This document shows, one piece after another, positions 9,515 to 59,362 of a DNA stretch of 64,000 nt. The position numbers were made by a program, and so were the translations under genes. The stretch comes from Sipunculus nudus (taxonomy: Eukaryota; Annelida; Sipuncula; Golfingiida; Sipunculidae), in NCBI GenBank assembly GCA_026874595.1, contig CM049308.1, positions 26,460,367-26,524,366 on the forward strand. Reading direction: 5' to 3'. The notes beneath the pieces were generated by a model that saw only the letters and a program-made list of their open reading frames with translations, searched no databases and was not told the origin of the DNA. Numbering within the stretch: position 1 is the stretch's first letter; each line of letters begins with the position of its first letter.

Positions 9515-9602
9515 ATGGCATGCAGTAATCTGGTTTGCCTGCTGGTGCTCTTTTTGAGCGCCAGACTGGGAAATGCTGGATACGTTAATGAAAAATGGCA
9601 CA
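9515..9602 (+). CDS. Exon 1: signal peptide
   Basis: The frame opens at ATG 9515 (context aaacATGg, a good Kozak match) and codes for 29 residues. These begin with a short polar stretch, then a hydrophobic core LVCLLVLFLS and a small-residue site GNA before Gly22, a typical signal peptide with likely cleavage after residue 21. The exon ends at 9602 before GTGAGT and leaves phase 1. The start is chosen because it gives the signal peptide and splices in frame to exon 2. An upstream non-coding exon cannot be excluded. An open frame on the opposite strand over this region is a shadow. Confidence 0.82.
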
Positions 9603-10494
9603 GTGAGTACTTAATTTAGAATTTCTAGAAGTTTAAATATTTAAATAATTACTATGTGGAAGTTTCTCTATTAATGTTCATATTTCCATGAAGAATCTTA
9701 TAAAAGTGCAACTTTCAGTGTTTATAAATTTCTATGATTTCGTGTCTCGTTCAGCCATCATATACCGGACTTAAAGAACTTGAGTATTTGAAATATGACC
9801 AGTATTCAAAATCAAATACAAGTTTTTTTTTCAAATATACTTTGAAAAGTCATCTGCATTATCTATTTTGTATAATGAATGTGGCTAGATGCTCGTGTTT
9901 GAGCGCCAAGATAATATATATACCGGCTGTTTTGAAGAAAAAAAAACTATATATAATTATAAAAACGGAGTTCCTCCTTTTAAACGTTTAACAGCTAATT
10001 GAAAAGTCACTTGTAATAATTTTTATCGGCTATGTCTATTGTTATTTTGTTTCTTTATTTCCGTAATTTATCTTATTTTGTTCAGCTTCCTGGTCGCTCA
10101 GCTGCATGCATGCTTTGCCAAAATAATTACTCTATTGAAAAGTTACATTCACTGTTCTTAATTATTCAAATAAATGTCTGTTCAGCTGGTTTACCTACAG
10201 GACATTGTAAAACAAATAAAAAGGGACAATAAATATATTTTTTCCCTCGCATTTCTTTGATTATAGTTTCTTGCACTGTGAATTTTATTTTAAAATAATC
10301 CAGTTAATATATAGAGCATCCAGCTTGGAAAAGCTATACATAGATGTTGTTTAATTATAATATATTTAATTTTCAGTAAATTACATGTTACTCACCTTAA
10401 ATTTTACTAATAACTGGAAAAGTTCAAAATTTAACTTAATTTTCAATATTTATGAATATCAGAGTTAGTGATCCCCCTGAAGCGCCTAGCGATA

Positions 10495-10720
10495 AAATTC
10501 AGTAAGGCCACACACACAAAAAAAATGGGAACCAAAAAATATATGGTGCGGGCGGGCAATTTTTTTCTTTACCAGTAGAGACACATTAGGTAGAATTTGC
10601 AATCTTGCCTAGGAAACAGAAAAATTGCTTCAATTCTTGAAATGGGGTTTATAATTTACACTTAATTTGGTCCATTTTTAAACATTTATGTTTTTTTTTG
10701 GGGGGGGGGGGGGGTGTTTT
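10495..10720. repeat. Diverged relative of the 'ggttctcaggcac' MITE (tentative)
   Basis: taaggccacacacacaaaaaaaatgggaacc followed by ggtgcgggcggg resembles the end of the MITE copies at 21838, 40052 and 61392. A poly-T/poly-G run (10691-10716) lies near its right side. The right end is not clear. Confidence 0.3.
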
Positions 10721-10849
10721 TTTTCATATCGTAAGTCAGCCTGCACCATTACCAAGGACCTGGTCTTCATTTTAAAAAAAGTTGAGACACGGAATATACT
10801 CACATTTTTATTTGCATGGCCTAAGGAATTACGCATATTGAACGTACCC

Positions 10850-10925
10850 TAAACTGTATGGTTAAGGCCATGGCAGAAAGTCTGGGGTTCGAACTCTGCT
10901 GTGTATTCGTCAAACGCAAAATGGT
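10850..10925 (+). repeat. tRNA-like sequence
   Basis: tatggttaaggcc (A-box-like) and ggggttcgaactc (B-box) are spaced about 35 bp apart. Acceptor stem pairing is not evident, so it is likely a SINE relic. Located in intron 1. Confidence 0.4.
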
Positions 10926-11586
10926 GGCAGAATCTTTATAATTCCTCAGAGACTTTATCCAGTTTCTTTACGACATGTTGCGACTTATGTTATATTCTCG
11001 GACACTAATTAACGAAACATTCATTTGGTAATAAAAACTAATTTTTACCCCCTAACTCATTCAGTATAGAGAGTGCAAGTAGGCGTTATAGCGGGTCATT
11101 GTCCTGACCTTTAAAAGATTGACATTTTTATAAGCTTTCTATTGCTATTTTCAATGTGTTGATTTCTTAAATATCTGGTTTGCGATTTTTACGAACAGGT
11201 GTTGACCATACAGTGTACTGAAGAATGGAGCAATTAGTACCCAATTAAAATGCTAAAAACTTAACAGTTTCACATTGAAAGTGTCATATTAAATTTTTTT
11301 CTGGATTGGTGCTTCGTTGATTGGTGTGGACATTATTATTTTATAACTATTCTTTCAGCTGCCATACACTCCCAACGTTTATGTTTTTATCACAATGCCA
11401 CCATAAATGGTCATACCAAAGGATTTCTGAACTTTGAGCTTTACCTCCAGTGTTTAAAGAAATCGGTCTTTAAGTCTGTATCTGTGAAAGTATCAGATTC
11501 ATCTTTAGCAAGTTTTTTTTCAGTCATTCCAGATCTATTTTGTTTGAACTGCTGCTTTATATACCAAGATTCTCCGGGTCACAACA

Positions 11587-11715
11587 CCAGGGCCCGCACA
11601 GAGCAAACAATTGTAATCAGACCAGTGAGAGCGTGGTATCGCATTGTGTACCCAGTTTTAAATCCTCTCCAACCAGCTCTCGTTGGTCTGATTCTTGGCT
11701 CTGTGCCAGCTCTGG
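11587..11715. repeat. Foldback inverted repeat, about 45-bp arms
   Basis: The left arm (from ccagggcccgcacagagc to aatcagaccagtgagagc) is the near-perfect inverse of the right arm (gctctcgttggtctgatt to ggctctgtgccagctctgg), with a loop of about 40 bp. It explains why overlapping open frames exist on both strands here. It may be a short foldback transposon. Confidence 0.75.
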
Positions 11716-12174
11716 TTTTTAGGCCCCGAAAAACTAAGCTAAACAAGCAGAGGTTAGAACGAAGGAGATCTAGAACGACTGCAGTACATAACCACTGGGT
11801 GAGGAATGCATGTAAGTCGCAATATATAATCTGCCTTTCGTGTTGATCAGCTAATTCTCTCACTGATCAAACTTTTTATCTAATAATAATATATAAACAA
11901 AATATGTTTATGTTTATTTCGAATTCTCCACAAGGTGACTAAAAATTAAATATAACCTGCCTTTTCGAAAGCACCAAGATATATATGACGCACTACTGTC
12001 CGCATCATCATAATTCCCGAGATGAGTTTCACTTTTATTAATTAATGTTATAGTGATTATAAGGATGTAAGAAATATCTATAAACTTCATCTCAATTTTG
12101 AGTATCGGTGAGTATATAGAAAATTGGATACAATAGTTGACGCCGTATTATCTATTTCTAGGCCCCAGCCTAGA

Positions 12175-12375
12175 ATTTAAGACGCAGAGGCGGCTCAGGA
12201 TTTTCGAAAGGGGAGAGTCACGCTCAGGACGACTGAAGAATACATACAAAAGCTCCTCTGGTTCGGGAAGGAGGGGGTCAAGGTCGCAAAATTTGGTTTG
12301 AAACCATAAAAAAGATGTTGTTTCGGATCAAAGAGAGAACCCCTTGACCCCCCCCCCCCTGGATCCGCCAATGCC
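12175..12375. repeat. G/C-run dispersed repeat, copy 1
   Basis: ctctggttcgggaaggagggggtcaaggtcgc, then a poly-C run and ctggatccgcc. The same skeleton (ggtccag-poly G-gtcaaggtc; aaacc; gga-ccccc) is found at 13437-13545 and 21205-21410. Confidence 0.55.
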
Positions 12376-12957
12376 GCGGGGTGTCAAATAATTTAACAGA
12401 GGAAAATGATGCGCCTGTCCTTTACATATCTATATATAAGCGTGATTCACTTTGTTAGAGCAATCTGCAAAAATGTTCATTCATTACAGTTTTATAGTAT
12501 GTCAAACTCAGAAAATAAAACCATGGTGATATAGTTCATTTCTCATTATCATTTCATATAACAGCGATAACTTATAGAGTAACCTTAAGTACCTTTAATC
12601 TTCTATCCTGCATTACCATTTTTCCCTTAAAATGTAATTTTCACAGCAAAAAAAAAAAAAAAAAAAAAGCGATGGAATCGAGGGAATAGAACGGAGTATA
12701 GTGGGAAATAGTAGGTGTATCAGTGTCAGCTTATATGATATAAACTGTATATCTCGAGAAAATGGTTGGCAATGGGTGTTTAGAGTGGATACTCTTATTA
12801 AATAATAGGTAGGTGGCAGATTAATTTATAAGAAATCGAAATATTAATTTATCCCGTAAAATACAGAATATATCACTCTAGAATGTGGGGATAAATTTGC
12901 ATTCTTAATGCAACAATTTGTAGCATCTTTAATTATTTAATTTTTTTATGTCAACAG

Positions 12958-13194
12958 GTTGTTACGGCAGCTATATGGCTCACTACTCAGCCAAGTTCTC
13001 CGAAGCAGTCTCTACCGGGGCATCAACCACTTTCCACGCATGCGCCGCAGAGTGTAAAGCAACGAATTGCAAGGCGGCCCTGTGGAACCGTCTCGGCAAC
13101 ACTTGTGGCCTGTGCACATCTGCAGTTTCTGAAGGCTCACTGCAAGTGTCAAGCTCGTACGTCTCACTGCTTCCTGATGCCCGGTGCACTTCCG
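12958..13194 (+). CDS. Exon 2: PAN/Apple-like module 1
   Basis: The exon lies between a tcaacag acceptor and a GTGAGT donor, is 237 nt long and has phase 1 at both ends. It encodes residues 30-108. Seven cysteines are present, with a central C58-x3-C62-x4-C67 group followed by C79-x2-C82 and a last C106, plus a W-N-R turn. This resembles PAN/Apple folds, small disulfide modules that bind proteins or sugars outside the cell. The match is by cysteine spacing and length, so the family call is moderate while the exon call is strong. Confidence 0.8.
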
Positions 13195-13436
13195 GTGAGT
13201 TACACAGCTTGACCAACATTAAATTCCTATCTGATTTATAGTACGCCTATTTCATTACATAAATCTTTTCGCACCAAATCCGTCTTCCCAAAGACAAAGC
13301 CCTCGCTGAGCTACGCTCCAAGAGACCTTGCTCTGTTTCTGGCCGCTTTGCCACCTATTTTGAGAATTTTCACAGGCTTGCACCTTATTTAACAAGGATT
13401 TTGTATGTCTAATATAAACTCCTTGATTTAAACAAT

Positions 13437-13545
13437 GATAAAATCTAATAAAAATATCCCCTGGTCCGGAAAAGCAGGGGTCCAGGCCGCAAAAAATGGT
13501 CTTAAACCTTTTAAAAAGGTTGTGGCGGCTGGACCCCCTGCCCAA
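13437..13545. repeat. G/C-run dispersed repeat, copy 2
   Basis: ccctggtccggaaaagcaggggtccaggccgc, tggtcttaaacctttt and ggctggaccccctgc match the family at 12175 and 21205. Shortest copy; in intron 2. Confidence 0.5.
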
Positions 13546-14191: not shown

Positions 14192-14428
14192 AGTGTGCGG
14201 GCTCTTTTGCCGTGTACAGATATCAGAAACTCAAAGTGGGTAGGAGCATCGGCAAAGTAGAGGAGTACAACTGTCACTCCGCGTGTTCCCAGCAGACACG
14301 TGCTGTGTGTACTGCGTACACTTGGGATCACGTTTCCAAAGACTGCATGATTGCCGGCTTGGGCGAGTACGATGGTTATGAGCCTTCAGACACTGGGCAT
14401 ACCTTTGTGGAAGAAGAGTCGTGTAGAA
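14192..14428 (+). CDS. Exon 3: PAN/Apple-like module 2
   Basis: Acceptor tctttcag, donor GTAAGT, phase 1 at both ends. The length is 237 nt, identical to exon 2. It encodes residues 109-187, with C110, then C136-x3-C140-x7-C148-x11-C160 and a terminal cysteine. The spacing fits PAN/Apple (alpha-helix C-x3-C followed by beta-strand cysteines). The N-terminal strand reads AVYRYQKLKVG and an aromatic T-W-D segment precedes the fourth cysteine. Identical length and phase with exon 2 suggest tandem exon duplication, although sequence identity is now low. Confidence 0.82.

Positions 14429-15459: not shown

Positions 15460-15463
<4 letters not shown>

Positions 15464-15547
<84 letters not shown>
15464..15547. 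repeat. (TA)n microsatellite
   Basis: About 40 TA units in intron 3. Confidence 0.95.
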
Positions 15548-15550
<3 letters not shown>

Positions 15551-18567: not shown

Positions 18568-18571
<4 letters not shown>

Positions 18572-18890: not shown

Positions 18891-19054
18891 TGGACTTGTC
18901 CTATTATTCTGTTGGTGGTGGAGCAATGGACCTCAAAACTACATGGAAAACCCCAGGTACTCTAGTGGTTGATATGAACAGTCAGTTCAAGTGGGGAGGA
19001 ACAATTGTGAGCTTTAAAGGATTCTTCAAAGCTGCTGGCAGTTTCCGCTTTGTG
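18891..19054 (+). CDS. Exon 4: module A1, first part
   Basis: Acceptor attttcgcag, donor GTATGT; it enters in phase 1 and leaves in phase 0. It codes for residues 188-242, a beta-rich stretch containing YYSVGGGAMDL, WGGTIVSFKGFF and AGSFRF. The last two line up with KFTGRLSQLSFF / SGSFTLF of module A3 (exon 9) and with the GTFYIGVWR region of module A2 (exon 7). I cannot name the family. It is best described as the first half of an extracellular beta-sandwich-like module occurring three times in this protein. Confidence 0.8.
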
Positions 19055-22651: not shown

Positions 22652-22955
22652 ATCATGAGACCCACAGGTACTACAGGCAGTTTCTCTGTAGTTAGTTTCT
22701 ATGACATCGATGTAAAAGCTAAAGGCCTGCTGGCTTACAACACCTATAAACATGATCCAATCAGGGTGGAATCCGGGGATCTGCTAGGCTTTGTTGCAAC
22801 CAAAGCCCAGGTTACCTACGCTACAATTGACTGCAACGGCCTGACAACGCAGTTTACATACACTGGTGGAGATTCAATCAGTAATGGTGGCACATATACT
22901 TTCTCAGCAAGCCAAGTTTGTGCCAGCTTCTCTATCTATGCCCGGGTTATTGCAG
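22652..22955 (+). CDS. Exon 5: module A1, second part
   Basis: Acceptor tttttttacag, donor GTAAGA; enters phase 0, leaves phase 1. It codes for residues 243-343. It starts with MRPTGTTGSFSVVSF, which aligns with ARPNPAQTGSFNIIST of module A3, followed by DPIRVESGDLLGF, the counterpart of DKRPDIMTGEIFGI in A3 and AFQKDDMLGFHYP in A2. Two cysteines (IDC, SQVC) may pair with each other. The role is unknown; the exon is well supported by phase and by the internal repeats. Confidence 0.82.
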
Positions 22956-23880
22956 GTAAGATGTTAAACCCAGGTCTTTATAATACTGAGAAGGAAAAAC
23001 TTGACATCTAAAATGTTAAATTTAATTGCACCCTAAAGCTAAGATCAGGGCTTCCACTGTGTCTGATTCTTGTATTTCTTATAGATTCATAGAGTTTCTT
23101 ATGAAAAAATTGTCTTCTGTCATTTCCTGTATTTTCCAGCTTTCAGATAGTAATCTCCCATATTTGTCTATATTATTTCACTGAACAATATAGATCCCAG
23201 TGTAACTATTAATACAGAACATTTTTTTTTCATATGACCTTACATTATTGAAAACATACAGCCTTTTTGTAAAACTGGAAGTGAGTGTAATAGTCATACA
23301 AAAAAAAACTAAAACCCATTAGAGCTTTTGATGCTGCTATTTGAACTTATGGTCACTGTTAGTTATCAAGTAAAACATGATTATGCAGTGAAAACCCCTA
23401 TGTTTTTCAGATATTTCTACCTGAAAATTACTATAAACTCGCATAAAATTGTCTCAAGTGCTCTTATAAAATTCCTGTATTTCTCCTTGAATTCCAAGGG
23501 AGACCTGTAAGATTCCAAATGCATGGAATGCACCGTGCTGATGTTGATTGTGAACCAGAGATTTCATATGTTGGTAGCATGCTACATATTCTACCTCTGT
23601 TGCATCTGGTATACAATGCTGATCCGGCTCTGCTGCATGTCGTGATTTAGCTTCCTGGATTTTCATACTGCATGGCAGATATTATGTGCATAAGGCATCA
23701 CAAAATCAATACTTATTTTTATCAGCATTCAACATGCAGCATCTCTTGTTTGCACCACTAAAGTCTTAGTTTTACTCCTTCATATTTGCGTATGTCTAAA
23801 CCACCAAAAATCTTGGTTTACCCAGTTTAATCAGCTGGCCTTAAGCCTGTCCAAGTCCACACTCAAGTCCCCAATCACTG

Positions 23881-24360
23881 TTTTCAACATATGGCCTATT
23901 TCTCTCAGCCTTATTTTATCAACATTATGGCCTATTTCTCTCTGCCTTATTTTATCAACATTAGAATCTATTGCTCCCAGCCTTATTTTATCAACATTAT
24001 GACCTATTGATCCCAGTGTTATTTTATCAACATTATGCCCTATTGCTCCCAGCCTTATTTTATCAATACTATGACCAATTGCAACCAGCCTTATTTTTTT
24101 CAACATTATGGCCTATTGCTCCTAGCTGTATTTTATCAACATTATGGCCTATTACACACATCCTTATTTTATCAACATTAGGACCTATTTCTCTTGGTCC
24201 ACTTTTAACAACATTAGGACCTATTTTTCTCAGCCTTATTTTATTAACATTATGACCTATTTCTCTCAGCCTTATTTTATCAACAGTATGACCTATTTCT
24301 CTCAGCCTTATTTTTTAAACATTATGACCTATTTCTCTTAGCCTTATTTCCTTAACCTTA
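23881..24360. repeat. 36-bp minisatellite, about 13 units
   Basis: The unit is ttatcaacattatggcctat followed by ttctctcagccttatt, with divergence between units. 36 is a multiple of 3, so frames remain open on both strands; these periodic 12-residue peptides are not supported as genes. Immediately upstream of a Helentron-like copy in intron 5. Confidence 0.9.
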
Positions 24361-24390
24361 TAACCATGTCTCTTAGACTTATTTAATCAT

Positions 24391-25232
24391 TTTAAGCTCA
24401 GCTGACGATAAGTTAACTGAGCTATAGCGATGGTCCTTTGTCCATTCATCTGTCCATCAGTTAACTGGCATGTTTTGAAACCATCTGACATATGAATCCG
24501 AAATTTGGCATACATTTAAATGTCTCCGAAATCTCCTACCATACCGAAAATTGGGTCACTAGTACTTCATTCATCTAGATATTAAAGAAAAACCTCAAAT
24601 TACCATTAAAAACCCATTGTTATACTTCAAGACTGCCTTATATCAAAACCAACGCTCAGTTTTTGATCATATATAATATACATATTCCTTTATATATTTA
24701 TAATAAATTTTTACCTTTATTTCTGCTTAAGTCTGTTAAACTTAGTTAATCAGGAATATAGGGCAAATTTTTTGTGGAATTAATTTTTAATATGGCCATA
24801 TATTTAATTATGGAAAACTTAATTTAATTCACACATTTTTTGTTAATGAAATGTATCCTTTCATATAAAACTTAGGGCCATTTTTTTGATATTGCATCAT
24901 TAAATGGGTTCAGGCCACAAGTTTCATTTATTGTACAGTGAAAATGCAATTTATACTTAATTGATTTTGTTTTAACATGCTTATTAAATTTTGTTTGTGC
25001 AGATTTGAATTTTTTTACGGCATTTTATTTAAGGTAATAAATTAATGTTTATTATTATTATTTTACTCATGTCCTTTATTCTATAATTTCAAAGGGTTTC
25101 ATTTTACCAGGGCCTTTTCCTCTTAGCTTATCAAATGCTAATATATATGAAAAAAAGTATATTTTGCATTTGCTAAATTTTCCCAAATTCAGCTGAGCGA
25201 CATGAATCAGGGGTCCATTGTTTTAACTTGTG
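24391..25232 (+). mobile_element. Helentron-like repeat, short diverged copy
   Basis: It starts agctcagctgacgataagtt...ctgagctatagcgatggtcc and ends cagctgagcgacatgaatcaggggtcc, matching both termini of the longer copy at 30763-32659. The left third aligns (gttttgaaacc, aatccgaaattt, cttcaagactgcc); the rest is shorter. Confidence 0.6.
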
Positions 25233-25275: not shown

Positions 25276-25566
25276 CTGAGTATGACGTTGTCAAAATTCA
25301 GGGGGTTTCCTTGTCAGAATGGAATGTTGAAGATCTACGGGACTTCACATATGAAACTTGCCTTCGTTATTGCCTGGGAACGGACAACTATCAGTGCCAG
25401 AGTGTAGAGTTTGGATCTGAGTTTTCCGGTCAGTGTCTAACCCAGAATGTCCTGAAGGAACAAGCTGCGAACTACTGGGACGACAAGTGGACAGCTTACT
25501 ATCACGCATACTTTGTGCCAAAGGCGGGTGCAAACCAGATTAGCACCACCATCACAATTGACTTCA
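25276..25566 (+). CDS. Exon 6: PAN/Apple-like module 3
   Basis: Acceptor tatttcag, donor GTGAGT, 291 nt, phase 1 at both ends. It encodes residues 344-440: a YDVVKIQGVSLSEW strand, then C372-x3-C376-x7-C384-x12-C397 with an Q-S-V-E-F segment after the third cysteine, typical of the PAN 'C..a.ey' strand. This is the clearest PAN module together with exon 21, whose layout (EGSDVKEI... E-C-x3-C) is very similar. The acceptor lies only about 45 bp downstream of the end of a Helentron-like repeat. Confidence 0.85.
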
Positions 25567-26483: not shown

Positions 26484-26987
26484 AAGTAAACCTGTATCCC
26501 CAGATAGTTGTGGCAGCCTTGCCAAAAATCACGACTACTAGTATCTACATCTTTTCGACACTTAAATTTACGGGAACCGGAGGCTTGTCTGCTGTGTCAT
26601 ATTTTGCTCAACAAATCGGTACCTTTTATATTGGTGTCTGGCGTATAGTTAAGAGTAAGTTAACTCTGATCGCAAAGGTTCGTGTATACGCCGGATTTGT
26701 GGGTAAACAATACTTTTCCTTTGGAACAACGGCTATCGCTTTCCAAAAGGATGACATGCTGGGTTTCCATTACCCGGAGACTTTCCACAAAGAGTCTAAT
26801 GGTGTTGGAGTTCTTGCTTATGCTGATACTACTAGTACCCTCGTAACGGCTGCTCAGTTACAGTCATACTACGTCATCAGCGGAACATTTGACGAGGCAA
26901 TGCAAAGTGGATTTTCAATAACGATACCTAAGCCAGGACCGGGGAAGATCGCTTGTGCACTTCAGCCAGTCACAACAACAACAACTG
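26484..26987 (+). CDS. Exon 7: module A2 plus Thr/Pro tail
   Basis: Acceptor tttttttcag, donor GTAAGT, 504 nt, phase 1 at both ends. It encodes residues 441-608. The full module A lies in one exon here: STLKFTGTGGLSAVSYF, GTFYIGVWR, KDDMLGFHYPE, then a C-terminal VISGTF and FSITIP strands. It ends in a Pro/Gly and poly-Thr tail (PKPGPGK, TTTTT) that could carry O-glycans. The intron that splits modules A1 and A3 is missing here. The family is not recognised; secreted, beta-rich. Confidence 0.85.
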
Positions 26988-28544: not shown

Positions 28545-28616
28545 TGCCACAGCCTCCACCAGCACCAACACCTAAGCCACCACCACCACCACCAACTCTA
28601 CCACCTGCACCTGTTG
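28545..28616 (+). CDS. Exon 8: proline-rich hinge
   Basis: A 72-nt mini-exon with acceptor tttctgttacag and donor GTAAGT, phase 1 at both ends. It encodes 24 residues, mostly proline with Thr, Ala, Lys and Val (KPPPPPPT core). It probably acts as a stiff spacer between module A2 and the glycine-rich start of exon 9. It is too short to be found by ORF length alone; support comes from both splice sites, symmetrical phase and its place between exons 7 and 9. Confidence 0.75.
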
Positions 28617-30762: not shown

Positions 30763-32659
30763 TAGTTCAGCTGACTATAGGTCATCTGAGCTATAGTCGT
30801 GGTCCATTGTCCGTCGTCGGTCCGTCCATCCGTCCGTAGATGTGGCACGTTTTGAAACCGTAAGACCTAGGAATCCGAAATTCAGCATAATGTTAGATGT
30901 CCCCAAGATCTCCTACCAAGCCGAAAACTGGGTCTTTGCGACTTCGTTACTTTGAGAAATTAAGGAAAAACCTCAATTTTTTATTTAAATCCTATTTTCA
31001 CACTTCAGGACTGCCTAATTTCAAAACCACTCATCTGTTTTTCCTCATATTAACCATAAATATTCTTCTATATAGTTCCTATGTACATGCCAGAAATTAA
31101 GTCTGTTAAGTATAAATTCTTTAAGTTATGGGCCAAAACATAATGGACTTTGTAAAAAAACAGGAAAAATATTTACTCACCTAACATGAAAAATTTTGAA
31201 ACTAGAGTCTATTTTCCCAAGTATATAACTATGTTTAATTAAGATTCAATTGTTTACCCAAAATTAGATCTGAATTTTGTAAATTTTTTAAGTAATTAGC
31301 ATAAAAATAAAATCAGTACCTTAAATTTTGCCCAACTTTGACCATGGCACGTTTTTTTCCTGTAAGTACCATTGATTTAATTTTCACACCATGTAAACAT
31401 AAATATTTAATTTGTTTAAATCTGAAATTTGGAAGTAAAAGCTTGAAAATTAAGCTAGTTATTGATTTTTTTCTTGAGGCTCTATTGTAGTCATTTGCTT
31501 TGATTACAGATTACAGATGCAGGGTCCCACTCCAGGTCACTGGAAGTCAGCTATGCCAGGGTTTCTGATTTGTTACAGTCACTGGGGGAGATCCCCTGCT
31601 GTGACAGGTGTTCAGTTATTCTGATATCACCACCCCAATCCCCCCCCCCCCCCCCCCCCCCCCCGCAAACCCAACCCACCAAGTGTTATGCAGTATTGTT
31701 ATTGTTTTCACTGTATCTCCTTAATTGTAATGCTGTTTCCACTCTGATATGCAAAAGCTTTCCTTAAAAAAGTAATTCAAGGTGTAATCCAGAAGATGCA
31801 ATGTTGTGTAATGTAGCATTTTTAAAGAAATCATTTTTCTTTTAAATGATTTTACCAATCATAATGGAACCCATCAGTATGCTTAAATTATGATAAAATA
31901 TGAAGCACATTATGGATAAATAAAGACACAATTCAAAATTGTGAAATCTAAATCAAGTATTTTTTTTAGACATTTATTGTTTTGCAGATTTAAAAAATAT
32001 ATTTTTGTGGTAAAAAATAAATAAACATTTGTATGCATGATGTGTTGTTATCTGACAAGATTGAGATTTATGATGATGCAATTGAGAATTATGAATCAAC
32101 TTTTATATTCAGATATATATGTTATATTGAAAATGTATAGAAATATAAACTTAAATTAAAAAAAAAATGATGTGATATAAAAATGAGGATTAGTTACAAA
32201 CATTTGTTCATTATTTTCCTGCATCAGCAGAATTTGAGATCAGGCTTTGTTTGCCATGTTTTATGTTGTTAATTAGTTATATTTCAACTGTATACATTTC
32301 ATAAAAAAACATATTTAATAATTTATATTATACAAAAAAAAGATTTGATTGAACAAATGTGTAAACTACTGAAATGTCAACAGTTAATCGAAAAGCCAAC
32401 TAATGATCATGGTAATTGTACAGATCATTTGTTCACAAACTGCTCACATGCTTCAGTTTCAACATTAGGAAACACATGGTCAGGTCACAAAATATTATTT
32501 GCAACAATTTCTTGCTCATCAATACAAACCAATCATATAAACCAACCATGGCCTTTATTACCTCTTCCTCTTACACTTTATCTCCATTTGATATTATTTT
32601 AGATTTTTACCTTCAAGGTTAACATCAGCTGAGCACAGTGACCCATAGGTCCCTTGTTT
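30763..32659 (+). mobile_element. Helentron-like repeat, full-length copy with EEP-nuclease remnant
   Basis: Starts agttcagctgactataggtcatctgagctatagtc and ends catcagctgagcacagtgacccataggtccc. The second copy (59503-61353) is closely similar along the whole length, including a poly-C run (31640-31664). Near the 3' end, 32342-32520 encodes QQLIEKPTNDHGNCTDHLF then TWSGHKILF, which reads like the C-terminal part of an endonuclease/exonuclease/phosphatase (EEP) domain (motif 'lIDHi.tN ... SDH'), with SGH in place of SDH. The copy lacks a Rep/helicase frame. Assignment to Helentrons is inference from this nuclease, its 3' position and the end structure. Confidence 0.6.
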
Positions 32660-36328: not shown

Positions 36329-36630
36329 GTGGAGGCGGTGGGGGAGGTGGCTTTTTACCCCCAGGGGAGCCAGTCGGACCAGGATTTGGGTTTATCACTC
36401 CACAGGCTGGTGGCATGACAATGAGACTTCCTCCAACGAATGCATACCTGCTGACCACTTTGACAAGCAAATTTACAGGGCGACTCTCACAACTGTCATT
36501 CTTCACCTTCATGTCTGGGTCTTTCACCTTGTTCATTGCAAGACCAAACCCAGCCCAGACGGGTTCATTCAACATTATATCGACTTTCACAATCACCGTT
36601 CCTGCCCCAACTGCAGTCCCTGGCTATGTT
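36329..36630 (+). CDS. Exon 9: glycine run and module A3, first part
   Basis: Acceptor gcattttcag, donor GTAAGT; enters phase 1, leaves phase 0. It codes for residues 633-733. It opens with eight glycines in its first eight residues or so (GGGGGGGG), then PPGEPVGPGFGF and module A strands: KFTGRLSQLSFF, SGSFTLFIARP, TGSFNIISTFTITVP, ending PGYV. It follows a 7.7-kb intron. The splice donor is used immediately after GYV, and the frame continues directly as TFRFP in exon 10. A reverse-strand open frame over this exon is a shadow. Confidence 0.83.
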
Positions 36631-37689: not shown

Positions 37690-37936
37690 ACTTTCCGTTT
37701 CCCAACCGACAAACGACCTGATATCATGACAGGTGAAATCTTCGGAATCGACTTTCCAGCAGGCATGGGACAGGGACTGCTACCAGTCATGTACCAGAAT
37801 GCTCTCCAGTTTGGCATCACTTCAGCACAGCTAACAGGATACATCCAAATTAACCTCGGGGTCAGGCCAGGTCAAATGATCACTGGTGGAATCGCAGGCA
37901 ACATCTACATCCCTATGTACTTCACAATCAACGAAG
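37690..37936 (+). CDS. Exon 10: module A3, second part
   Basis: Acceptor gctttttttcag, donor GTTGGT (weaker than its neighbours); enters phase 0, leaves phase 1. It codes for residues 734-815: TFRFPTDKRPDIMTGEIFGIDFPAG, equivalent to the DPIRVESGDLLGF and KDDMLGFHYP regions of A1 and A2, then LLPVMYQNA and a final strand IYIPMYFTI. Cysteine-free. The intron within A3 lies about 40 residues later in the module than the one within A1, so the two are not the same inherited intron. Confidence 0.82.
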
Positions 37937-38428: not shown

Positions 38429-39091
38429 AACCGTTGTCCCAGTTGGCCTGGAAGTTTGACATTTCTGCACTGGTTGGAAACCTTCTTAAGCCCAATTCCC
38501 CCGGTGCACCATCCTGTTTAATAGGAAAACTCATCTCCTTTGTAACAGGACCGAATAACGCTCCACAGTCTGCTGTTGAGTTTAAGGGCTCCATAGACAG
38601 CCTTATCGAATTCCCAGCAAATTTCCAACTGGATTTCCGCTACTCCATCAGCGTACATTTATCCATGTACCTGACGCTGTTCCAGAGTGCTGTACTTTTC
38701 CAGTATAAAGATGTCTACGATGGCGTTGGTGTTTTCATGGGATTTTTAGGTCTATCCTTCATTGTACCAACTCGGGGAAAACGACCTAACCCAACTGCTG
38801 ATGCAGTGTTTGTAAATCGTTTAAGGATTGGCCTGTTTGGCTGGAGGGATCTCTTGGTAACCTATGATTACCATCAGAAACTAGCCATTTTGCGTATCAC
38901 AAACAGGAACATCATTGAGCAGAAGAGGTTCCCTTTCAGTAGGGAGATTGCAACCCAAGGCACCTTCACCCTGGGAGGCTGCAGAACAAGGAAGCACTAT
39001 TACAAAGGAAAAATAGGATGTATGACTATGGTTGGCACTGCTTACTCGGCAGCCAACGCAAATCTCAAACCATCAGCATGTGAACACATGC
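38429..39091 (+). CDS. Exon 11: laminin-G/ConA-like domain
   Basis: Acceptor gtctttgcag, donor GTAAGT, 663 nt, phase 1 at both ends. It encodes residues 816-1036. Features of a LamG/ConA-like jelly roll: SAVEFKGSIDSLIEFP near the start, SISVHLSMYL in the middle, ALLFQY-like strand (SAVLFQYKD), a W-R-D-L-L-V-T-Y-D strand matching the 'W..v..tyd' of LamG_3 domains, and a C-terminal GKIGCMTMVGTAYS strand, the usual '..G.I.c...y..al' ending. Two cysteines (GGC, IGC) lie close to the end as in LamG. It probably binds glycans or matrix proteins. Domain class fairly sure; subfamily not. Confidence 0.83.
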
Positions 39092-41037: not shown

Positions 41038-41540
41038 ATGAGAACAAACTGGATGTAAACATCTTTACAGCAAAACCAACGCCACCCAGGCCACCAGTTT
41101 GTGGGGTTCGACCCCCTCTGCCTCCAACACGTCCACCTTGCAGACCACCATTTGGCTTTGGTGGATTTAAACCTCATTGCTCCCCACCAAAAGGACCCCC
41201 TGGTGGCTTCGGCTGGGGCGGTGGCTGCCGTCAAAGGCACCCATCCCCACCTAAAGGCTGTTGTGGAGGACATCATGGTCATGGACACCACCGTGGACAC
41301 CATGGACATCATGGACGTTGGAAGAGAGGTGCTGTCGAGCCACCTCCCCCACAGCAAGGCGACTTCATCTGCTACATCGAGGCTTCGGGTGTGGCCACGA
41401 TGACGCATCACGTCAAGGTGTTATGCGGAGGCACAGAAGTCTACGCCGAGTCCGTACAGGAGGAAGCTGGCGGCCCCAGCCCCATAGAAGTTGTAGCTCC
41501 TGCCGATACCGTGAGAGACTGTGACCTGATCAAAGATGGC
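41038..41540 (+). CDS. Exon 12: Pro/Cys/Gly/His-rich segment with RWKR site and start of VWDE-like core
   Basis: Acceptor catattcag, donor GTAAGT; enters phase 1, leaves phase 0. It codes for residues 1037-1204. First a Pro-rich stretch (PTPPRPP, PPLPPTRPPCRPP), then Gly/Cys-rich (GGCRQRH, GCCGG), then a histidine cluster with nine His in 15 residues (HHGHGHHRGHHGHHG), then RWKR (residues 1130-1133), fitting the furin R-x-K/R-R rule, and PPPPQQ. After this comes a folded-looking part (FICYIEASG, VKVLCGG, VRDCDLI) that begins the VWDE-like region. The His cluster could bind metal. Several alternative-frame open frames over this exon are shadows of its biased composition. Confidence 0.83.
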
Positions 41541-44804: not shown

Positions 44805-44885
44805 CTTGTGTGTGAGGTTAAAAGCTGCACATCAAGAGATTGTGGAGATGAATTGACAACCCCTCCACTCAAGGAAGGTGTGACA
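44805..44885 (+). CDS. Exon 13: short Cys-rich segment
   Basis: An 81-nt exon with acceptor gaatttacag and donor GTAAGT, phase 0 at both ends, codes for 27 residues containing CEVKSCTSRDC. It continues exon 12 directly (DLIKDG | LVCEVK), so the cysteines C1207, C1212 and C1217 can pair with those of exon 12. Phase 0-0 differs from the phase 1-1 modules upstream, marking the switch to the core part. Open sequence past the donor is intron read-through. Confidence 0.78.
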
Positions 44886-47521: not shown

Positions 47522-47917
47522 ATTTCTAGTCCATTGACGATATCAGTTGAAGAGGGTGGTGATCCAGGCATCATTCAGATCCAGCTCGGAGCCCTGCCGT
47601 CCAAGATAACAGGCGACCCAGACGGTGAGGTTGTGATCACTGCTACCGTCACTCAGGAAGGGACACCATATAAGTGCACTTATGATAACACTGTGGAAAA
47701 ACCTCAGGTCGCCATCAGCTACCCAGTGACAATCGATGGCTACTCTGTCTGTGGATTCACTATCACCGATATGACCTTTGAAGACACTTGGGATATGAAT
47801 GTCATCGCAACACCTGATTGGCTGAAAGATGGCGATGCCACCGTCACTGTCACAGTTGTTTCAAAATATGTTGTTGGTGGCACAGTAACCTCTGAGCAGG
47901 AAGTTGGAGTGGTCACG
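47522..47917 (+). CDS. Exon 14: beta-sandwich domain before vWD
   Basis: Acceptor tttctcacacag, donor GTAAGG, 396 nt, phase 0 at both ends. It encodes residues 1232-1363 with alternating hydrophobic strands (LTISVEEGG, EVVITATVTQEG, ATVTVTVVS) and only two cysteines (YKC, SVC), which may form one disulfide. VWDE proteins have a similar beta-sandwich region just before the vWD domain, so position and composition both fit. Exact fold uncertain: Ig/FN3-like is my best guess. Confidence 0.83.
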
Positions 47918-49006: not shown

Positions 49007-49086
49007 GTAACTGTGATTGACAAGGATGAGCCAGGTGTTGTCTGTGAATCTAGAAATGACCCACATATGAAGACATTTGACAATGT
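49007..49086 (+). CDS. Exon 15: start of vWD domain
   Basis: Acceptor ttcactacag, donor GTGAGT; enters phase 0, leaves phase 2. It codes for residues 1364 to about 1390. After VTVIDKDEPG comes C-E-S-R-N-D-P-H-M-K-T-F-D, the well-known start of vWD domains (C..gDPH..TFDg). Here N replaces the usual G in GDPH, as is common in VWDE. The D-P-H residues belong to the calcium-binding start of the fold. Confidence 0.85.
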
Positions 49087-49477: not shown

Positions 49478-49541
49478 GAAATATGATGTATTCCTTATGC
49501 AGGAGTTTGTTATCTACCGTAACCTGAGAATGCCCGTACAG
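49478..49541 (+). CDS. Exon 16: vWD domain, second part
   Basis: A 64-nt exon with acceptor cttttgcag and donor GTGAGT; enters phase 2, leaves phase 0. It gives KYDVFLMQEFVIYRN followed by LRMPVQ. This is the Y-x-x-F..G.yvL strand pair of vWD and matches the 'tG.fvlYk' region of VWDE. It joins exon 15 as DNV-KYD without a gap. The exon is short but required by phase and domain continuity. Confidence 0.85.
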
Positions 49542-49984: not shown

Positions 49985-50197
49985 GTTCATGCTCGATTTG
50001 ATGTATGTCCAAACCAGTATCACAAAGCTCCAGCCTGTAACTGCGCTGTCATGATCCAGGCGGGTGATGATGTGTATGTCTACGACAGATGCCAGATACC
50101 AAAGTCCAACCCAGCAACCAGAGAAATCTTGTACTTGAATGGCAAGATGACCACAGGCTTTAGAATTTTCAAGATGGATAATGGCAGAACAATCCAG
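49985..50197 (+). CDS. Exon 17: vWD domain, central part
   Basis: Acceptor cttctttatag, donor GTGAGA, 213 nt, phase 0 at both ends. It encodes residues 1412-1482, with VHARFDVC followed by Y-H-K-A-P-A-C-N-C-A and a DDVYVYDRC strand. The order 'V.vr...C....asCncgv....gd.v..d.C' is the VWDE-type vWD signature, the strongest reason for the VWDE label. The frame stays open for a while past the donor, but the donor and the following domain parts show that this is intron. Confidence 0.86.
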
Positions 50198-52099: not shown

Positions 52100-52202
52100 G
52101 TTCATCTGCCGACTGGTGGATTTGTGCAGATTATTCAGGATGGCGCCAAGTTCCTGAATCTTAAAATTTACCCATCCACCTTGGACTTTGGAAACACTGA
52201 AG
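52100..52202 (+). CDS. Exon 18: vWD domain, later strands
   Basis: Acceptor tctttatag, donor GTAAAA; enters phase 0, leaves phase 1. It codes for residues 1483 to about 1516: VHLPTGGFVQIIQDG and LNLKIYPSTLDFGNTEG. These are the '.v.l.sG..v.......l.v.i..p' strands that lie just before GLCG in vWD domains. Cysteine-free, as expected. It lies between introns that contain the pogo-like element (left) and a 52-bp minisatellite (right). Confidence 0.84.
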
Positions 52203-53155: not shown

Positions 53156-53384
53156 GTACTGTAAATTTCTGTACTGTAATTTAAAACCATCCAGAGACAG
53201 GATCAAGGTTTAGGATGTTATCCTTCACTCATTCATAATATCACTGACTAAAGAGTTGCAGATTACACAATGAACTTCACAAGCTTTTTAATTCCAACCA
53301 TCATGTAAGTCAAAAGGCTTCGGTGTAACCAGCCCAGCACCCATGGCTTGGCCCTGAGGTGCTCAGTTCACATCAAGGGCCATG

Positions 53385-53803
53385 CATATCAAGACCTGAT
53401 TCTAGATGCCTATATTATTCTGGATAGCGACAGATGCATATCCAGACCTGATTCTAGATGCCTACATTATTCTGGATAGCGACAGATGCATATCCAGACC
53501 TGATTCTAGATGCCTATATTATTCTGGATAGCGACAGATGCATATCCAGACCTGATTCTAGATGCCTACATTATTCTGGATGGGGACAGATGCATATCCA
53601 GACCTGATTCTAGATGCCTACATTATTCTGGATGGGGACAGATGCATATCCAGACCTGATTCTAGAAGCCTACATTATTCTGGATGGTGACAGGTGCATA
53701 TCCAGACCTGATTCTAGATGCCTACATTATTCTGGATGGCAACAGATGCATATCCAGACCTGATTCTAGATGCCTACATTATTCTGGATGGCGACAGATG
53801 ATA
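53385..53803. repeat. 52-bp minisatellite, about 8 units
   Basis: The unit reads cagacctgattctagatgcc, tacattattctggatggcga, cagatgcatatc. It is highly homogeneous with a few variants (tagcga/tgggga/tggcga; tatatt/tacatt). In intron 18; the short open frame at its end is not a gene. Confidence 0.95.
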
Positions 53804-54119
53804 CAAACAAACTTCCACATGACTTCCTTGGTAGGCTTCTTGAGATGGAAAGTACCATGTGCACATGCACACTACTGATTTTCTTAACATGTTCTCGGTT
53901 ATAAATATATGAACTCTCTCTCTATGTAACTTGTTGGAAACTAGGTAAAAAATAAAAATTAAGGCTCTACTCAGCTACTCAATCAGTGAATCCCTTTTTA
54001 ATCCTTTGGTGAACTCCTACATTCCTCACTTGTTATGAATTTAAATGAAATCCAGCTGTACAATAACACCATATCGTCCCCAAAAAATATTATAACTAAT
54101 AGAACATCGACTAACAACA

Positions 54120-55004: not shown

Positions 55005-55162
55005 GTAAAACTTGTATAATAAGCTTATAATATCACCCATGAAACTGGCCAAAAGTGATCTTAATTCACACATAATAGATAGTTTAAACTGATGTGAATG
55101 CTTTTGGTTTGCTAAGGGTGGTCTAATTAGATAGGTGGTCTTTCAGACTGGTTCCACTTATT
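55005..55162 (+). mobile_element. pogo-like MITE next to exon 19
   Basis: Left end cagtaaaacttgtataata is the same as the end of the transposase-bearing element at 50772; right end gactggttccact. It stops about 30 bp before the exon 19 acceptor. Confidence 0.55.
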
Positions 55163-55192
55163 TAATTTAATTTCTTATGTTTGTTCATATAG

Positions 55193-55301
55193 GGTTGTGT
55201 GGGGTGTATGATGGATCAGCAGAGGGTGACCTTATCCAGCCTGACGGGAACTCCTACACTGGGACAGAGCGGTTCCGTCACACGTTCGCCAGGATGTGGG
55301 A
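55193..55301 (+). CDS. Exon 19: vWD GLCG motif
   Basis: Acceptor gttcatatag, donor GTAAGG; enters phase 1, leaves phase 2. It codes for residues 1517-1552. It begins GLCGVYDGSAEGDLIQPDG, the classic vWD 'GLCG..dgn..dd....dG' motif, then the F-A-x-M-W-E segment equivalent to 'F...W.v'. The residue before GLCG is Glu, not Cys, so the CGLC isomerase-like motif of multimerising vWF D domains is absent. Confidence 0.86.
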
Positions 55302-55880
55302 GTAAGGCTAAATGTCTGATACATCTGAGATGATACGTCCAAAAGATTTTTCACACCTAGTCATAGCCCATCCCACCTAAATCGCCCATCAGTTTTTTTC
55401 GATATTAATCTACCAAGTCCTTCATTTTTTAAAATAACAAATTTTCAGGTAATTCACTAGATACTCAGGCACTTTATTTAATGTATAAGTAAACCGTCTA
55501 TTTTTTTCATGTAATGTTGACTGAAGTGATAAAATCAAGGACAAGTTTTGACAAATGTTGATTGAATGATGAAAGTTCATGATACCATTAATATGCTAAA
55601 ATACATTGTCAGCTAAAAGATGCCATCCCCCACTGTCACTACACGAGGAAATGTCTAGAAAGTTGCAAAGTATACATTCACTTAAGTTTACAACAATAGT
55701 TCAATTTATGTAGCAGGAGTGTAAATAATTTGGACTCTGATACTGGACAGAAATATGAGCATTTCATAATTATTTGCAAAAAACAATTGGCACCCCTTGG
55801 TTGGATAAATAATAGTTCCAACTGTTGATGAAAGCAGGTTCTGAATGTTCATGTTCCTTATATGAACCAGAGAGATCACA

Positions 55881-56060
55881 CAGTGAAACCTCTGAATTAT
55901 GATCACAAATGAGACCTTGATAAAGATGTTGCATTGTCAAGATGGTTGTCTAAGCAAGTTCTCATATAAAGAGCAAAAAAATGTTGGGACCGTGAATAGG
56001 TGGTCTTTGTTTTGAGGTGGTTGCTAAACTGAGATGGTCATTAGGTGAGGTTTTAATGCA
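55881..56060 (-). mobile_element. pogo-like MITE (inverted)
   Basis: cagtgaaacctctgaattatgatcac, gagaccttgataaa, atataaagagcaaaa and ttaggtgaggttttaa are the inverse of the MITE at 35690-35865. In intron 19. Confidence 0.6.
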
Positions 56061-56319
56061 TTTATATCATTATACTTGAATTGCATCAGTACCAGGTGGT
56101 TGGGATGCCTCTGAAGTCTGGGAATCATTTATATTATAGATTTTTCCTGATACAAAACCTGATTAAAAGCTGACCACAGGATACATCTTAACTAGAATAT
56201 GCAATTTTTGCCATTATTGAATCAAGAATAGAATCAAAAGGCAAGAATGGGTAATTAAATTAAATCAGAGACCCCTTGGCATTTTATTAGGTTAATTTGG
56301 TGTGATATGTATCTTCCAG

Positions 56320-56486
56320 AGTTGAAGCTGCAAACTCCATGAGATTTGGATTCTGTCCCCCCGACGATTTTACCTTTGAAGAAGTTCCTAACATCTTGTA
56401 TTGTGACTGCAAAGCTCCTGATGAGAGCATGTGCACCCATCATCACGCTACCAACCCATGTATACCCAACAAAAGAGGAATTACAG
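56320..56486 (+). CDS. Exon 20: end of vWD, Cys segment
   Basis: Acceptor tatcttccag, donor GTATTT; enters phase 2, leaves phase 1. It codes for residues 1553-1608: V-E-A-A-N-S-M-R-F continues the W-E of exon 19, then Cys-containing FGFCPPDD, LYCDC, MCTHHH and NPCIPNKRG. It is the C-terminal tail of the vWD unit, where VWDE proteins also carry a short Pro/Asp-rich stretch. The HHH triplet may be chance or metal-linked. Confidence 0.8.
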
Positions 56487-57755
56487 GTATTTATCTTTAA
56501 TTATAATTAGTTCCCTGCCATAGGGAGGAAGGACTACTAAAATGGTCCATGTCTGTCTTTTTGTCCATTTATCTGTCTGTCCATACGTTTTAATTCAGTA
56601 GCAATACACAAATTTTTAGAATATTTTTCACACTTTTTAAATTTTTACCAGCCAGATAGGTTTAAATTGGATTTCTGTGTATTCCTCTGACGATTTGGGT
56701 TAGTTTAAACTAATTTCTGTTACCTCACTTAAGGATTTCTTGTTAACTGTTAACATCTGGTTAATCCAGTGTTACAGCTACTTATATATTGCACATTTAT
56801 TATTTTGTCATGAATGACCAGTAAAGTTTAATTTCCAATACACAGATGGCACTGCAGGTTAGCCACTAGACAGTGGATACACATATATAGATTCTGCCAG
56901 AAGCTTAGATAGTGAAAAAATAGTCTCAGGATCTAAGGAGAAATATATAAAAATATAAATCTGCATCCCAATGGATACATGCCTTTGCCATGTCTGATTC
57001 CATTCCCTTCACAACTTAGACCACACATTTCCAAAACACTTTGTGAACACACTGGACACCATCATTCTAAGGTGCTTGGTGCTCAAGCATGACCTGAACA
57101 GGTGACCATGCAGGAGCCAATGCGCAGCACGAGGTTAGAATTCCTGTGCATTCATTTATTCATTGGCCCATATTCCCAGGTTCATTCGCCCATAAGTGAC
57201 CCTACATTTGTGAATATTCATTGACCATGCTCCACAATCCACAGAAGATGCTTGATCAACACCAAAATCTAATCAATTCTTCCATCGCCAATTTCTGAAA
57301 TACCCAGAAAATTACTTGGGATTCTGTTCATGGTTGTGTGAGTTAGCTTGTGAACAACACACAAACATACACAAATGAGAATAATTGCAAGCCTTACGTG
57401 CGGAGGCAGTAGCTCCCGTTACTATTTACTTGGCAATGTACGTTCCAGACACTTCAAGACCAAACAGTTGAGTGGCACCACTGTCAATTATAGTACAGAT
57501 TGGAAAAAAGCTGTATGTGCAGTGTCATGATATAAGTTTATAGTTTGTCTGATCTGAATGGTTTCTATTTCATTTAGAAAAAACATTTTTTAGAAATGAC
57601 CAATGTTTTTGTAGATGTTTGAATGGTGACGAGGCCTATATGCACAAAAAATCATGAAAATCCAAAGAAGTGCACTTGAATAGACATTGAAAATAAAATC
57701 TGATAAAGTTGTAAGAAAACTGATTTTCTTATGTGTACCTATTTTTTCATTTTAG
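56487..57755. other. Intron 20
   Basis: A 'tgtctgtctttttgtccatttatctgtctgtccat' patch at 56550-56585 is the only repeat-like sequence I notice. No coding or RNA signal. Confidence 0.55.
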
Positions 57756-58010
57756 TTGGAGAAAAAACAGTGCAATGGACACTGTACCAGGGATGGTCCA
57801 TTGAAGGTAGCGACGTAAAGGAAATTACAGCAAAAAATGCATTTGAATGCAAAGAACTATGCCTGGCCAATACAAAATGCAAGTCAATAGAATATTCAAA
57901 TCGTGGTGACCTGACTGTCTGTAAACTGAAATCTGCTCTTAAAGCCGATGCTGGAGATGCCTGGGTTGCCAGTCTGGATTTTGATTTCTATGAATTTACT
58001 GAAATTACAG
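57756..58010 (+). CDS. Exon 21: PAN/Apple-like module 4
   Basis: Acceptor ttcattttag, donor GTATGA, 255 nt, phase 1 at both ends. It encodes residues 1609-1693: WTLYQGWSIEGSDVKEI strand, then F-E-C-K-E-L-C (C-x3-C), a C-K-S-I-E-Y strand and T-V-C-K-L. This is a canonical PAN core ('C...C......C.s.ey.....C.l'). The same layout as exon 6 suggests they share a recent ancestor. Its phase 1-1 ends make it the only shuffled-type exon downstream of the vWD core in the window. Confidence 0.86.
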
Positions 58011-58329
58011 GTATGATGGCTTGTTACTTGTATATTTAACAATTTTAATTAAATTCAAATTGGATTTGAAGGTCACATTTGTCACCTCCGACTACAATAA
58101 AGATGATTATGTGAAAAAGATGATAATGTAAATAAATGTGTACATACATATTTTTATACACACACATAATCATATGTATATAGATATCTCCAATATAATC
58201 AGTTTTATCAATTTTTTTTCAGTTTCCTTCATAATTGATCGATATGCATTTTTTGCATAATTGATCACAAACAATTATGTATGCATATGTAAAGGAACCA
58301 TATAATCCTGAACAAAAGTTTTAATCCAG

Positions 58330-59040
58330 TCAGAGAAATAAGAAAAACGGGACAGAAAGTAGCAAACAGCATTAAACTTAACTTTTTGCAGCTTGAAAAT
58401 TGGCAAACAAAACCTGTTACCTTGAAATAGAACCTGTTACCATAAAACAGACCCTTGAAAAGAAAAGAAAATACTTCAGCCTTGTACATCTGCATAAAAT
58501 TATTCATGGAGCAGCTACAGAGTATTTACAAAATGTCCATCCACCAAGACAAGGGTTGAAAAGTCAGTATCCCAGCAGGAGAGAAGAGGACTTCACACCA
58601 ATACGAACAAACAAAGAGTCCTACAACAAATTACATATACCAGCAACAATAAGATACTGGAACCAACAGGAGGATCAATATAGAAAAACTCCCCACATTG
58701 GGACACTTCAAAAACGCATTAAAGCAATCATTATTCCCACAGCTGCAATAAATCATACGAGAATAAGAATGGGACTTAGCCCTCTACAATTCTTCAATAT
58801 CATTAATATCTGTACCACATTACTGAAAATAATAACTATTGTTATAATCAACCTGAAGATGCTGAACATTATTTTCTAAAATGTCCAAAATACAGTGTTG
58901 AAAGGCAGGAGATGCTGAAAAACATCATACATTTCACAGGAAGACTCAACTTAAACAGTAACACAGACTTAATCATTTTAATTTTAAAAGGACACTCTCA
59001 TCTAACATTTGAAGAAAACCACACATATTTTCTATTTTAG
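58330..59040 (+). mobile_element. LINE 3' fragment (reverse transcriptase C-terminal region)
   Basis: The first frame (from 58400) gives FSLVHLHKIIHGAATEYLQN, RTNKESYNKLHIPATIRYWNQ and NHTRIRMGLSPL, as in the C-terminal tail of Jockey/CR1-type LINE ORF2 proteins ('LyKIingl.p.yl', 'R......f.Psai..WN.L', 'R.r.Glspl'). After a frameshift near 58800 a second frame codes for NQPEDAEHYFLKCPKYSVER, the typical C-x..ED..H(Y)FL.CP zinc-knuckle-like end, and closes with TAG at 59038. The fragment is 5'-truncated and frameshifted, so it is a dead copy in intron 21. Confidence 0.75.
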
Positions 59041-59210
59041 ATACTTTGTTTACTGATACACATAGATTTCAATAGACATATAAAAAAATTAATGTAACAC
59101 ATGTAATATGAAGGTACATTGACATTGACATTATACATAATCATCTAGAGATTGACAGATAATAGACTGTGATCTGTATTCTGTGTAATTCTGATCCTTG
59201 CATTTTGTAG

Positions 59211-59362
59211 AGGACGATGTTAAGAAGATTAGGCTAAATCCAGGTGAGGAGATCACAGATTTCCTGATTAGCACTGCCCAGCAGCCCGAGGGATGTACAG
59301 AGCCACTTCCCCCTGACTTCAACCCACCCGCAGTGGATCCAGGCATCACTGACCAGTCAGTG
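59211..59362 (+). CDS. Exon 22: acidic/proline linker (last exon seen)
   Basis: Acceptor cattttgtag, donor GTATGT; enters phase 1, leaves phase 0. It codes for residues 1694-1744, including EDDVKKIRLNPGEEI, PEGCTEPLPPDFNPP and DPGITDQSV. The last part resembles the 'P.gIt...a...C' start of the region after vWD in VWDE, so the next exon should carry more of that region. No matching exon was found in 59363-64000. Confidence 0.78.

Follow-up and report, generated by a model that had tools for sequence, protein, structure and literature searches.

Background

Proteins of the VWDE type are secreted and carry a vWD domain followed by EGF domains; ahead of the vWD they have a beta region, as does the gene described here. 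The planarian protein Equinox is also predicted to be secreted and is EGF-rich, and it is related to VWDE in its EGF region; it carries TSP1 domains, whereas the vWD of VWDE is absent from it (PMC9117669). In this work we analyzed a stretch of 64,000 nucleotides from Sipunculus nudus (hereafter the window; C3:26460367-26524366, in a genome of 1.43 Gb in 153 contigs), in which an earlier note had read, between positions 9515 and 59362, a VWDE-like core carrying PAN, LamG and repeated unnamed modules that we call module A. Positions above 64000 continue the window numbering into the same contig, C3, and we refer to the gene as the C3 gene.

The second subject of this work is the distribution of N-glycosylation sequons. 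According to the part of the source cited here, sequons are almost eliminated at buried sites and selected for at exposed sites, they are rare at interfaces, and they have been lost in BiP; that part describes no giant secreted protein lacking sequons throughout (PMC5562741). No giant matrix protein free of sequons, and no VWDE protein with PAN and LamG, was recognised among the open-licence papers listed.

From these analyses we conclude, with reasonable confidence, that the region is the beginning of one gene of 51 exons, whose product would be a secreted VWDE-like protein of 4286 residues with two tandem units, PAN and module A cassettes, and a scaffold devoid of N-glycans.

Results

The gene model

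Exons were scored with a codon table and donor and acceptor matrices, and joined by a dynamic programme that keeps the phase; the matrices were set from general knowledge and are not trained on this genome, and weak exons were settled by their phase and their likeness to the other of the two units described below. Rebuilt from the sequence, 9515-59362 contains 22 exons and 21 GT-AG introns and reads through 1733 codons with no stop, in agreement with the open frame of 21 introns reported in the earlier note, for which 1744 codons had been counted. The frame had been taken to end at 59362; instead of a stop, a GT donor (GTATGTAG) directly follows this position, and 29 more exons, from 64774-64926 to 127869-128176, keep the frame until a stop located 64.2 kb beyond the end of the window. 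The whole gene (C3:26469881-26588542) has 50 introns, all of them GT-AG and of compatible phases, and a single stop at its end. The encoded protein has a mass of approximately 462 kDa, an isoelectric point (pI) of 5.0 and 136 Cys, and the part in the window represents its N-terminal 40%, approximately.

When the codon table was made from myosin exons only, 35 candidates with scores above 12 were obtained in 130 kb, and all 35 overlap the model, 31 of them exactly; no candidate above this score appeared when the 117 kb non-coding part was shuffled ten times. The real minus strand gave 13 such candidates; rows of this kind lie partly antisense to exons of the model and partly within a tandem array. 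Scoring the exons again after correcting the orientation of myosin in the codon table left the model unchanged. At least 16 of the 51 exons fall outside the top score class (>12), and the short exons 91624-91687 and 74777-74891 are homology-based. Exons proposed by the programme, for example at 11533, 60207, 74015 and 84781, were dropped because homologous exons or the phase fitted better.

Domain architecture

The exons of the window are all on the plus strand. Exon 1 (9515-9602) carries the start codon and a signal peptide, and it is the most hydrophobic of the 14 listed ATG-to-donor candidates found from 1 kb to 130 kb, in the window and downstream of it (3.63 vs 2.4-3.1 in the other first-exon rows, several of which are in other frames of coding exons). 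The N-terminal part follows the order signal peptide, PAN-like, PAN, A1, PAN-like, A2, proline linker and A3. Among the four PAN modules previously proposed, those at 14192-14428 (22.7 bits) and 57756-58010 (38.9 bits) pass the Pfam PAN_1 (PF00024) cut-off of 21.4 bits, the one at 12958-13194 remains below it (17.3 bits, E 0.0043), and the one at 25276-25566, identified by eye from its Cys pattern, has no Pfam match; a leave-one-out profile of the four copies recovered none of them. The first copy of module A is divided between exons 18891-19054 and 22652-22955 (E 1.1e-9 for the copy in the leave-one-out profile), the second occupies exon 26484-26987 (E 3.3e-19), and the third, recovered likewise and preceded by a Gly-rich lead, is divided between exons 36329-36630 and 37690-37936. 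The proline-rich linker exon (28545-28616) rests on the gene model.

Unit 1 follows, in the order LamG-type, Pro/Gly/His-rich segment with RWKR, beta region, vWD, PAN, post-vWD region, EGF, TIG-like and Cys module. Its first exon (38429-39091) is named LamG-type only, because it has no Pfam match to Laminin_G_3 (PF13385); the LamG of the earlier note is nevertheless sustained by an E value of 1.7e-9 (0.65 for the best of 200 shuffles) to the profile of the corresponding exons of unit 2 and of the paralogue on C1. Pfam identifies both of these exons as Laminin_G_3 (3.9e-12 and 9e-15, respectively). Exon 41071-41540 encodes the Pro/Gly/His-rich segment and the beginning of the beta region, and its phase matches that of unit 2 and of the C1 paralogue; the His-rich segment was correctly recognised before, with 10 His in 30 residues from residue 1093. 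The beta region continues in exons 44805-44885 (gene model and unit comparison) and 47522-47917. A model of this third exon (predicted local distance difference test, pLDDT, 79.1) aligned with the NCX Ca-binding domains with Z values of 6.0-6.6, amid other Ig-like top rows, and no Calx-beta match was found in Pfam; a Calx-beta identity is suggestive only.

The vWD domain announced by the earlier note extends over exons 49007-49086, 49478-49541, 49985-50197, 52100-52202 and 55193-55301, with a Pfam VWD (PF00094) E value of 8.9e-12 across the whole domain; the last four are also supported by the unit comparison, and when the second of the five is called freely another phase scores higher. After the Cys-rich post-vWD exon (56320-56486; gene model and unit comparison) comes PAN module 4, which is encoded in a symmetric exon within unit 1 (57756-58010) and includes an RGD at residue 1647, and then the first exon of the region leading to the EGF domains (59211-59362). 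Downstream of unit 1 the order is A4, A5, LamG, beta region, vWD (Pfam 3.8e-17), post-vWD region, EGF, TIG-like and Cys module, and the C-terminal end comprises A6 to A10, EGF repeats and the stop. Both vWDs, PAN 2, PAN 4, the second LamG and the EGF models, which follow each vWD and recur at the C terminus, pass their Pfam cut-offs; support for TIG is weak, with an E value of 0.039 that stays below the cut-off and was obtained in one unit only. A genome-wide Pfam vWD search, in which 150 of 284 candidates were scored, did not list the vWD of the C3 gene.

The VWDE-like unit and its paralogue

The region from LamG to the Cys module forms a unit of 16 exons, and in the models unit 1, unit 2 and the VWDE-like gene of contig C1 (57.68-57.716 Mb, minus strand; C1:57680001-57716000) share all their exon phases; for unit 1 this comparison leaves out PAN 4, as one extra symmetric exon. 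Whole-unit blastp gave E values of 1e-72 between units 1 and 2, 1e-69 between unit 1 and the C1 gene, and 1e-115 between unit 2 and the C1 gene, with an identity of about 28%. Since the count of 16 out of 16 phases alone would overstate the case, the 48 exons were called again with no phase imposed: the three agree at 12 of the 16 positions with the myosin table or at 13 with the gene's own table, and the agreeing exons in unit 1, unit 2 and the C1 gene are 14, 14 and 15 or 13, 16 and 15, respectively. As the two halves and the C1 paralogue agree in the phases of the 16-exon unit, the protein is regarded as VWDE-like with two units; vWD followed by EGF in both units bears out the original assignment. 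The units are old, and unit 2 is nearer to the C1 gene than it is to unit 1. In a tree of five rows, the three VWDE-like vWDs are set apart from two vWDs of a mucin-like gene on contig C16, and unit 1 has a long branch.

The C1 gene, too, can be read on by phase at two places where a Cys module is followed by another LamG; a search of 12 kb ahead of the first of them, which did not extend to terminal exons, gave no hydrophobic first exon. The VWDE-like units at C1:57680001-57716000 form an array that apparently runs from unit to unit, and this array may be a much larger gene with multiple units.

Where PAN or module A occupies a single exon, that exon is symmetric and of phase 1, matching the prediction for exon shuffling. 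LamG is not part of the unusual N-terminal set that the earlier note had described, because the C1 paralogue also carries it; LamG is common to the unit in this genome, and PAN and module A are the additions.

Module A

Module A is present in ten copies in the gene; the three that had been noted in the window are among them. Each of the ten is recovered by the profile of the other nine, with E values from 1e-9 to 1e-30 (best of 200 shuffles, 0.004), and no match was found in Pfam, NCBIfam, PHROGs or the sequences of the PDB. The AlphaFold2 model, obtained for copy 2 from eight aligned copies, is all-beta, with a pLDDT of 81.7 and a predicted template modelling score of 0.81. Among the Foldseek candidates aligned with VIA-align, the lectin-like domain of Cwp84 scored highest (Z 9.5, root-mean-square deviation 3.5, 150 aligned residues); carbohydrate-binding and discoidin-like domains gave Z values of approximately 5-6, with topology unchecked, and two matches to viral structures had E values under 0.001. 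The model of module A is thus a beta-sandwich, and a lectin-like domain is among the solved folds closest to it.

When A6 was used as query, matches were found at five places in the C3 gene, one on contig C13 and one on contig C7. A C7 copy, which is adjoined by a PAN-like frame below the cut-off, gave 80 matches in the genome, 44 of them on C7 (manual count) and one in the C3 gene. A dense cluster of module A exons, with about 42 matches (manual count), lies at C7:66-74 Mb and represents an unnamed expanded family; another match, at C7:8.79 Mb, has a match to a VWDE-like vWD at a distance of about 86 kb. Among the listed match places of module A and of the VWDE-like unit, no second gene joining both was found.

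N-glycosylation sequons

The whole protein contains 142 Asn and 623 Ser plus Thr, and no N-x-S/T sequon in which x is other than Pro. Shuffled versions of the protein have 19.0 +/- 4.0 sequons, none of 5000 shuffles reaches zero, and the binomial probability of zero at its own composition is 1.9e-9. Both halves are empty (0 vs 8.2 and 0 vs 10.9 expected), which fits a single chain routed through the endoplasmic reticulum. Ser or Thr is found 18-25 times at each of the positions N+1 and N+3 to N+6 and only five times at N+2, and these five N-x-S/T all have Pro at x (5 of 14 NP). There are 17 occurrences of the reversed motif, N-x-C is not avoided (8, or 6 without Pro, vs 4.5 expected), and translation of the coding sequence in its other two frames gives 18 and 19 sequons. 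The depletion is specific to the glycosylation motif.

The number of sequons is not reduced in the C1 unit (11 vs 7.5 expected), in 24 exons of the C1 gene (16 vs 12.1 expected) or in the module A copies of C7 and C13 (3 vs 2.8 expected); the one sequon seen when the ten module A pieces are concatenated is an artefact at the join of two pieces. The C16 gene is also low (4 vs 9.8 expected), and therefore some depletion is not unique to the C3 gene. Asn represents 3.3% of the C3 protein and 4.5% of the C1 exons.

Repeats and bacterial contigs

A repeat of about 1.8 kb is present twice, with pieces 91-96% alike, at 30820-32659 and 59528-61358, 28.7 kb apart; one copy is in an intron of the window and the other in the intron that follows 59362, and the repeat is probably a mobile element. 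Tandem arrays with units of 34, 36 and 52 bases are found at 7139-8221, 23818-24424 and 53278-53901, respectively. The array at 7139-8221 is upstream of the gene, and three minus-strand frames are open over long stretches of it. A long array in the intron at about 111193-114538 is also open on the minus strand and repeats a peptide of the type WPILEQVDHLVRGNPWLQ.

COX1-family genes of near-equal score are present at nine places on eight contigs (C60, C61, C62, C66, C72, C74, C75 and C89), with one more on C123; the search listed 11 places in all, including a short match on C5. The two that were read, on C60 and C123, look bacterial, so that no mitochondrion was identified among them, and the nearest GTDB match of the former is at 59%; hence the assembly holds bacterial DNA, of a symbiont or of a contaminant.

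Discussion

We propose that PAN and module A cassettes were shuffled into phase-1 boundaries of a VWDE-like protein with two units. The chain would pass through the endoplasmic reticulum, because it has a signal peptide, modules of the disulphide type and a void of sequons. Once secreted, its vWD units would assemble the chains into an extracellular scaffold, as these domains suggest, and the ten beta-sandwich modules, together with LamG and PAN, might bind numerous partners at once, either glycans or matrix proteins. Selection would keep the chain free of N-glycans, either for dense packing or to prevent the binding of its own glycans during secretion. The gene model, the modules, the homology of the units and the lack of sequons are shown in this work; secretion, multimerisation, ligand binding and tissue are inferred, and the protein would be a scaffold of secreted matrix, mucus or shell, close to the matrix, mucus or adhesive role that had been suggested for it.

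Several points weigh against this interpretation. The single gene is a model predicted from sequence; exon 91624-91687, with a score of 3.1, was chosen by homology over a candidate of 4.3; A6-A10 and the EGF exon, at the C-terminal end, are joined through their phase only; 13 separate weak terminal-exon candidates, with scores from 8.1 to 13.9, lie between the exons of the model; and 10 of the 48 compared unit exons had been sought with the phase imposed, which affects part of the phase agreement. Regarding module A, Foldseek gave nothing under E 0.001 in the PDB; the PBCV-1 capsid protein (Z 8.9) and the acetyl xylan esterase CspAcXE (8.6) tie with Cwp84; no ligand can be read from a fold; and in the part of the Cwp84 report cited here its authors call the function of their lectin-like domain unclear (PMC4089489).

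A bolder version of the proposal, which we hold to be doubtful, is that the whole 4286-residue chain has been cleared of sequons as a multivalent scaffold that binds glycans, and that module A is an unrecognised lectin-like family of animals with dozens more copies in the genome. If this were true, any N-glycan on the chain would be bound by the chain's own beta-sandwich modules, with clotting in the secretory pathway as the consequence.

As for its role, a shell or skeletal matrix protein is a rival to mucus or adhesion that deserves to be considered, since a VWDE-named transcript is first in the mantle-only list of Mytilus in the part of that report cited here (PMC4581086) and a VWDE-like protein is listed in the coral skeletal proteome, in the corresponding part of its source (PMC7115838). 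In this reading the mantle would secrete it as an acidic scaffold, and its lack of sequons would allow organic and mineral material to pack tightly; the pI of 5.0 agrees with this. On the other side, a mollusc-like host is weakly indicated by one muscle myosin exon, which scores highest with 3i5f, a squid structure, and next with a mixture of vertebrate and scallop myosins. We regard this reading as tentative, with the odds rather against it. An immune or symbiont-recognition protein of a lectin-like kind, in which PAN and module A would putatively bind microbial glycans, is unlikely in our judgment: the module A family is expanded, as immune families often are, and the assembly includes bacterial contigs, but the expanded copies belong to other genes and the contigs are maybe contaminants.

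A different objection concerns the model itself, since two or three neighbouring genes (a PAN/module A protein, unit 1, and unit 2 with the module A run) could have been wrongly joined through their shared phase-1 boundaries. The PAN, module A and unit boundaries are symmetric and of phase 1, so a wrong join would keep the frame; some blocks are separated by introns of 5-8 kb, and the 13 terminal-exon candidates, non-overlapping and all above 8, are accompanied by 13 hydrophobic first-exon rows. However, none of these terminal candidates looks module-like by eye, the first-exon rows are weaker than exon 1, sequons are absent from both halves, and in the C1 paralogue the phase likewise permits continuation from a Cys module to the following LamG, the 12 kb searched there having given no hydrophobic first exon; we consider such a join a little less probable still. 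That the absence of sequons is an accident of composition and not the result of selection is very improbable, given that, in spite of the slight scarcity of Asn and the low count in the C16 gene, the binomial probability is minute, Ser and Thr are frequent at the other Asn offsets and in the reversed motif, the five N-x-S/T all have Pro at x, N-x-C is not avoided, and the other two frames carry sequons.

The preferred explanation remains one gene for a chain of two VWDE-like units. It would be a VWDE-like gene in which the unit is doubled and cassettes of a domain unnamed in the libraries searched are repeated, and its product would be a very large secreted protein seemingly selected against N-glycosylation along its whole length, which raises the question of which extracellular proteins cannot afford an N-glycan.

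Comparison with known systems

Like module A as modelled, the lectin-like domain of Cwp84 and the N-terminal domain of the acetyl xylan esterase are beta-sandwiches; in contrast, they belong to bacterial enzymes and their identity with module A is 11% and 8%, respectively, and no function follows from the likeness. With respect to Equinox, the C3 gene differs in the presence of vWD, and no TSP1 model is found among its Pfam matches. Relative to VWDE proteins, with no vertebrate VWDE sequence included in the comparison, it differs by its two units per chain, its PAN and module A cassettes, its lack of N-glycan sites, and the LamG placed ahead of each unit, as is also the case in the C1 paralogue.

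Within the same genome, the C1 gene shares with the C3 gene the 16-exon unit from LamG to the Cys module and its phases, and its units are also repeated; in contrast, no PAN or module A was recognised among the exon candidates of its 36 kb, and its number of sequons is normal. The mucin-like mosaic at C16:16.70-16.73 Mb (C16:16703001-16733000, minus strand), where crystallin-like and EGF-like exons were also seen by eye, resembles the C3 gene in combining module A, a pair of PAN-like exons and vWD; unlike it, its vWD is followed by C8-/TIL-like exons, C-type-lectin-like and kringle-like exons are present (by eye), and its vWDs fall outside the VWDE-like group of the five-row tree.

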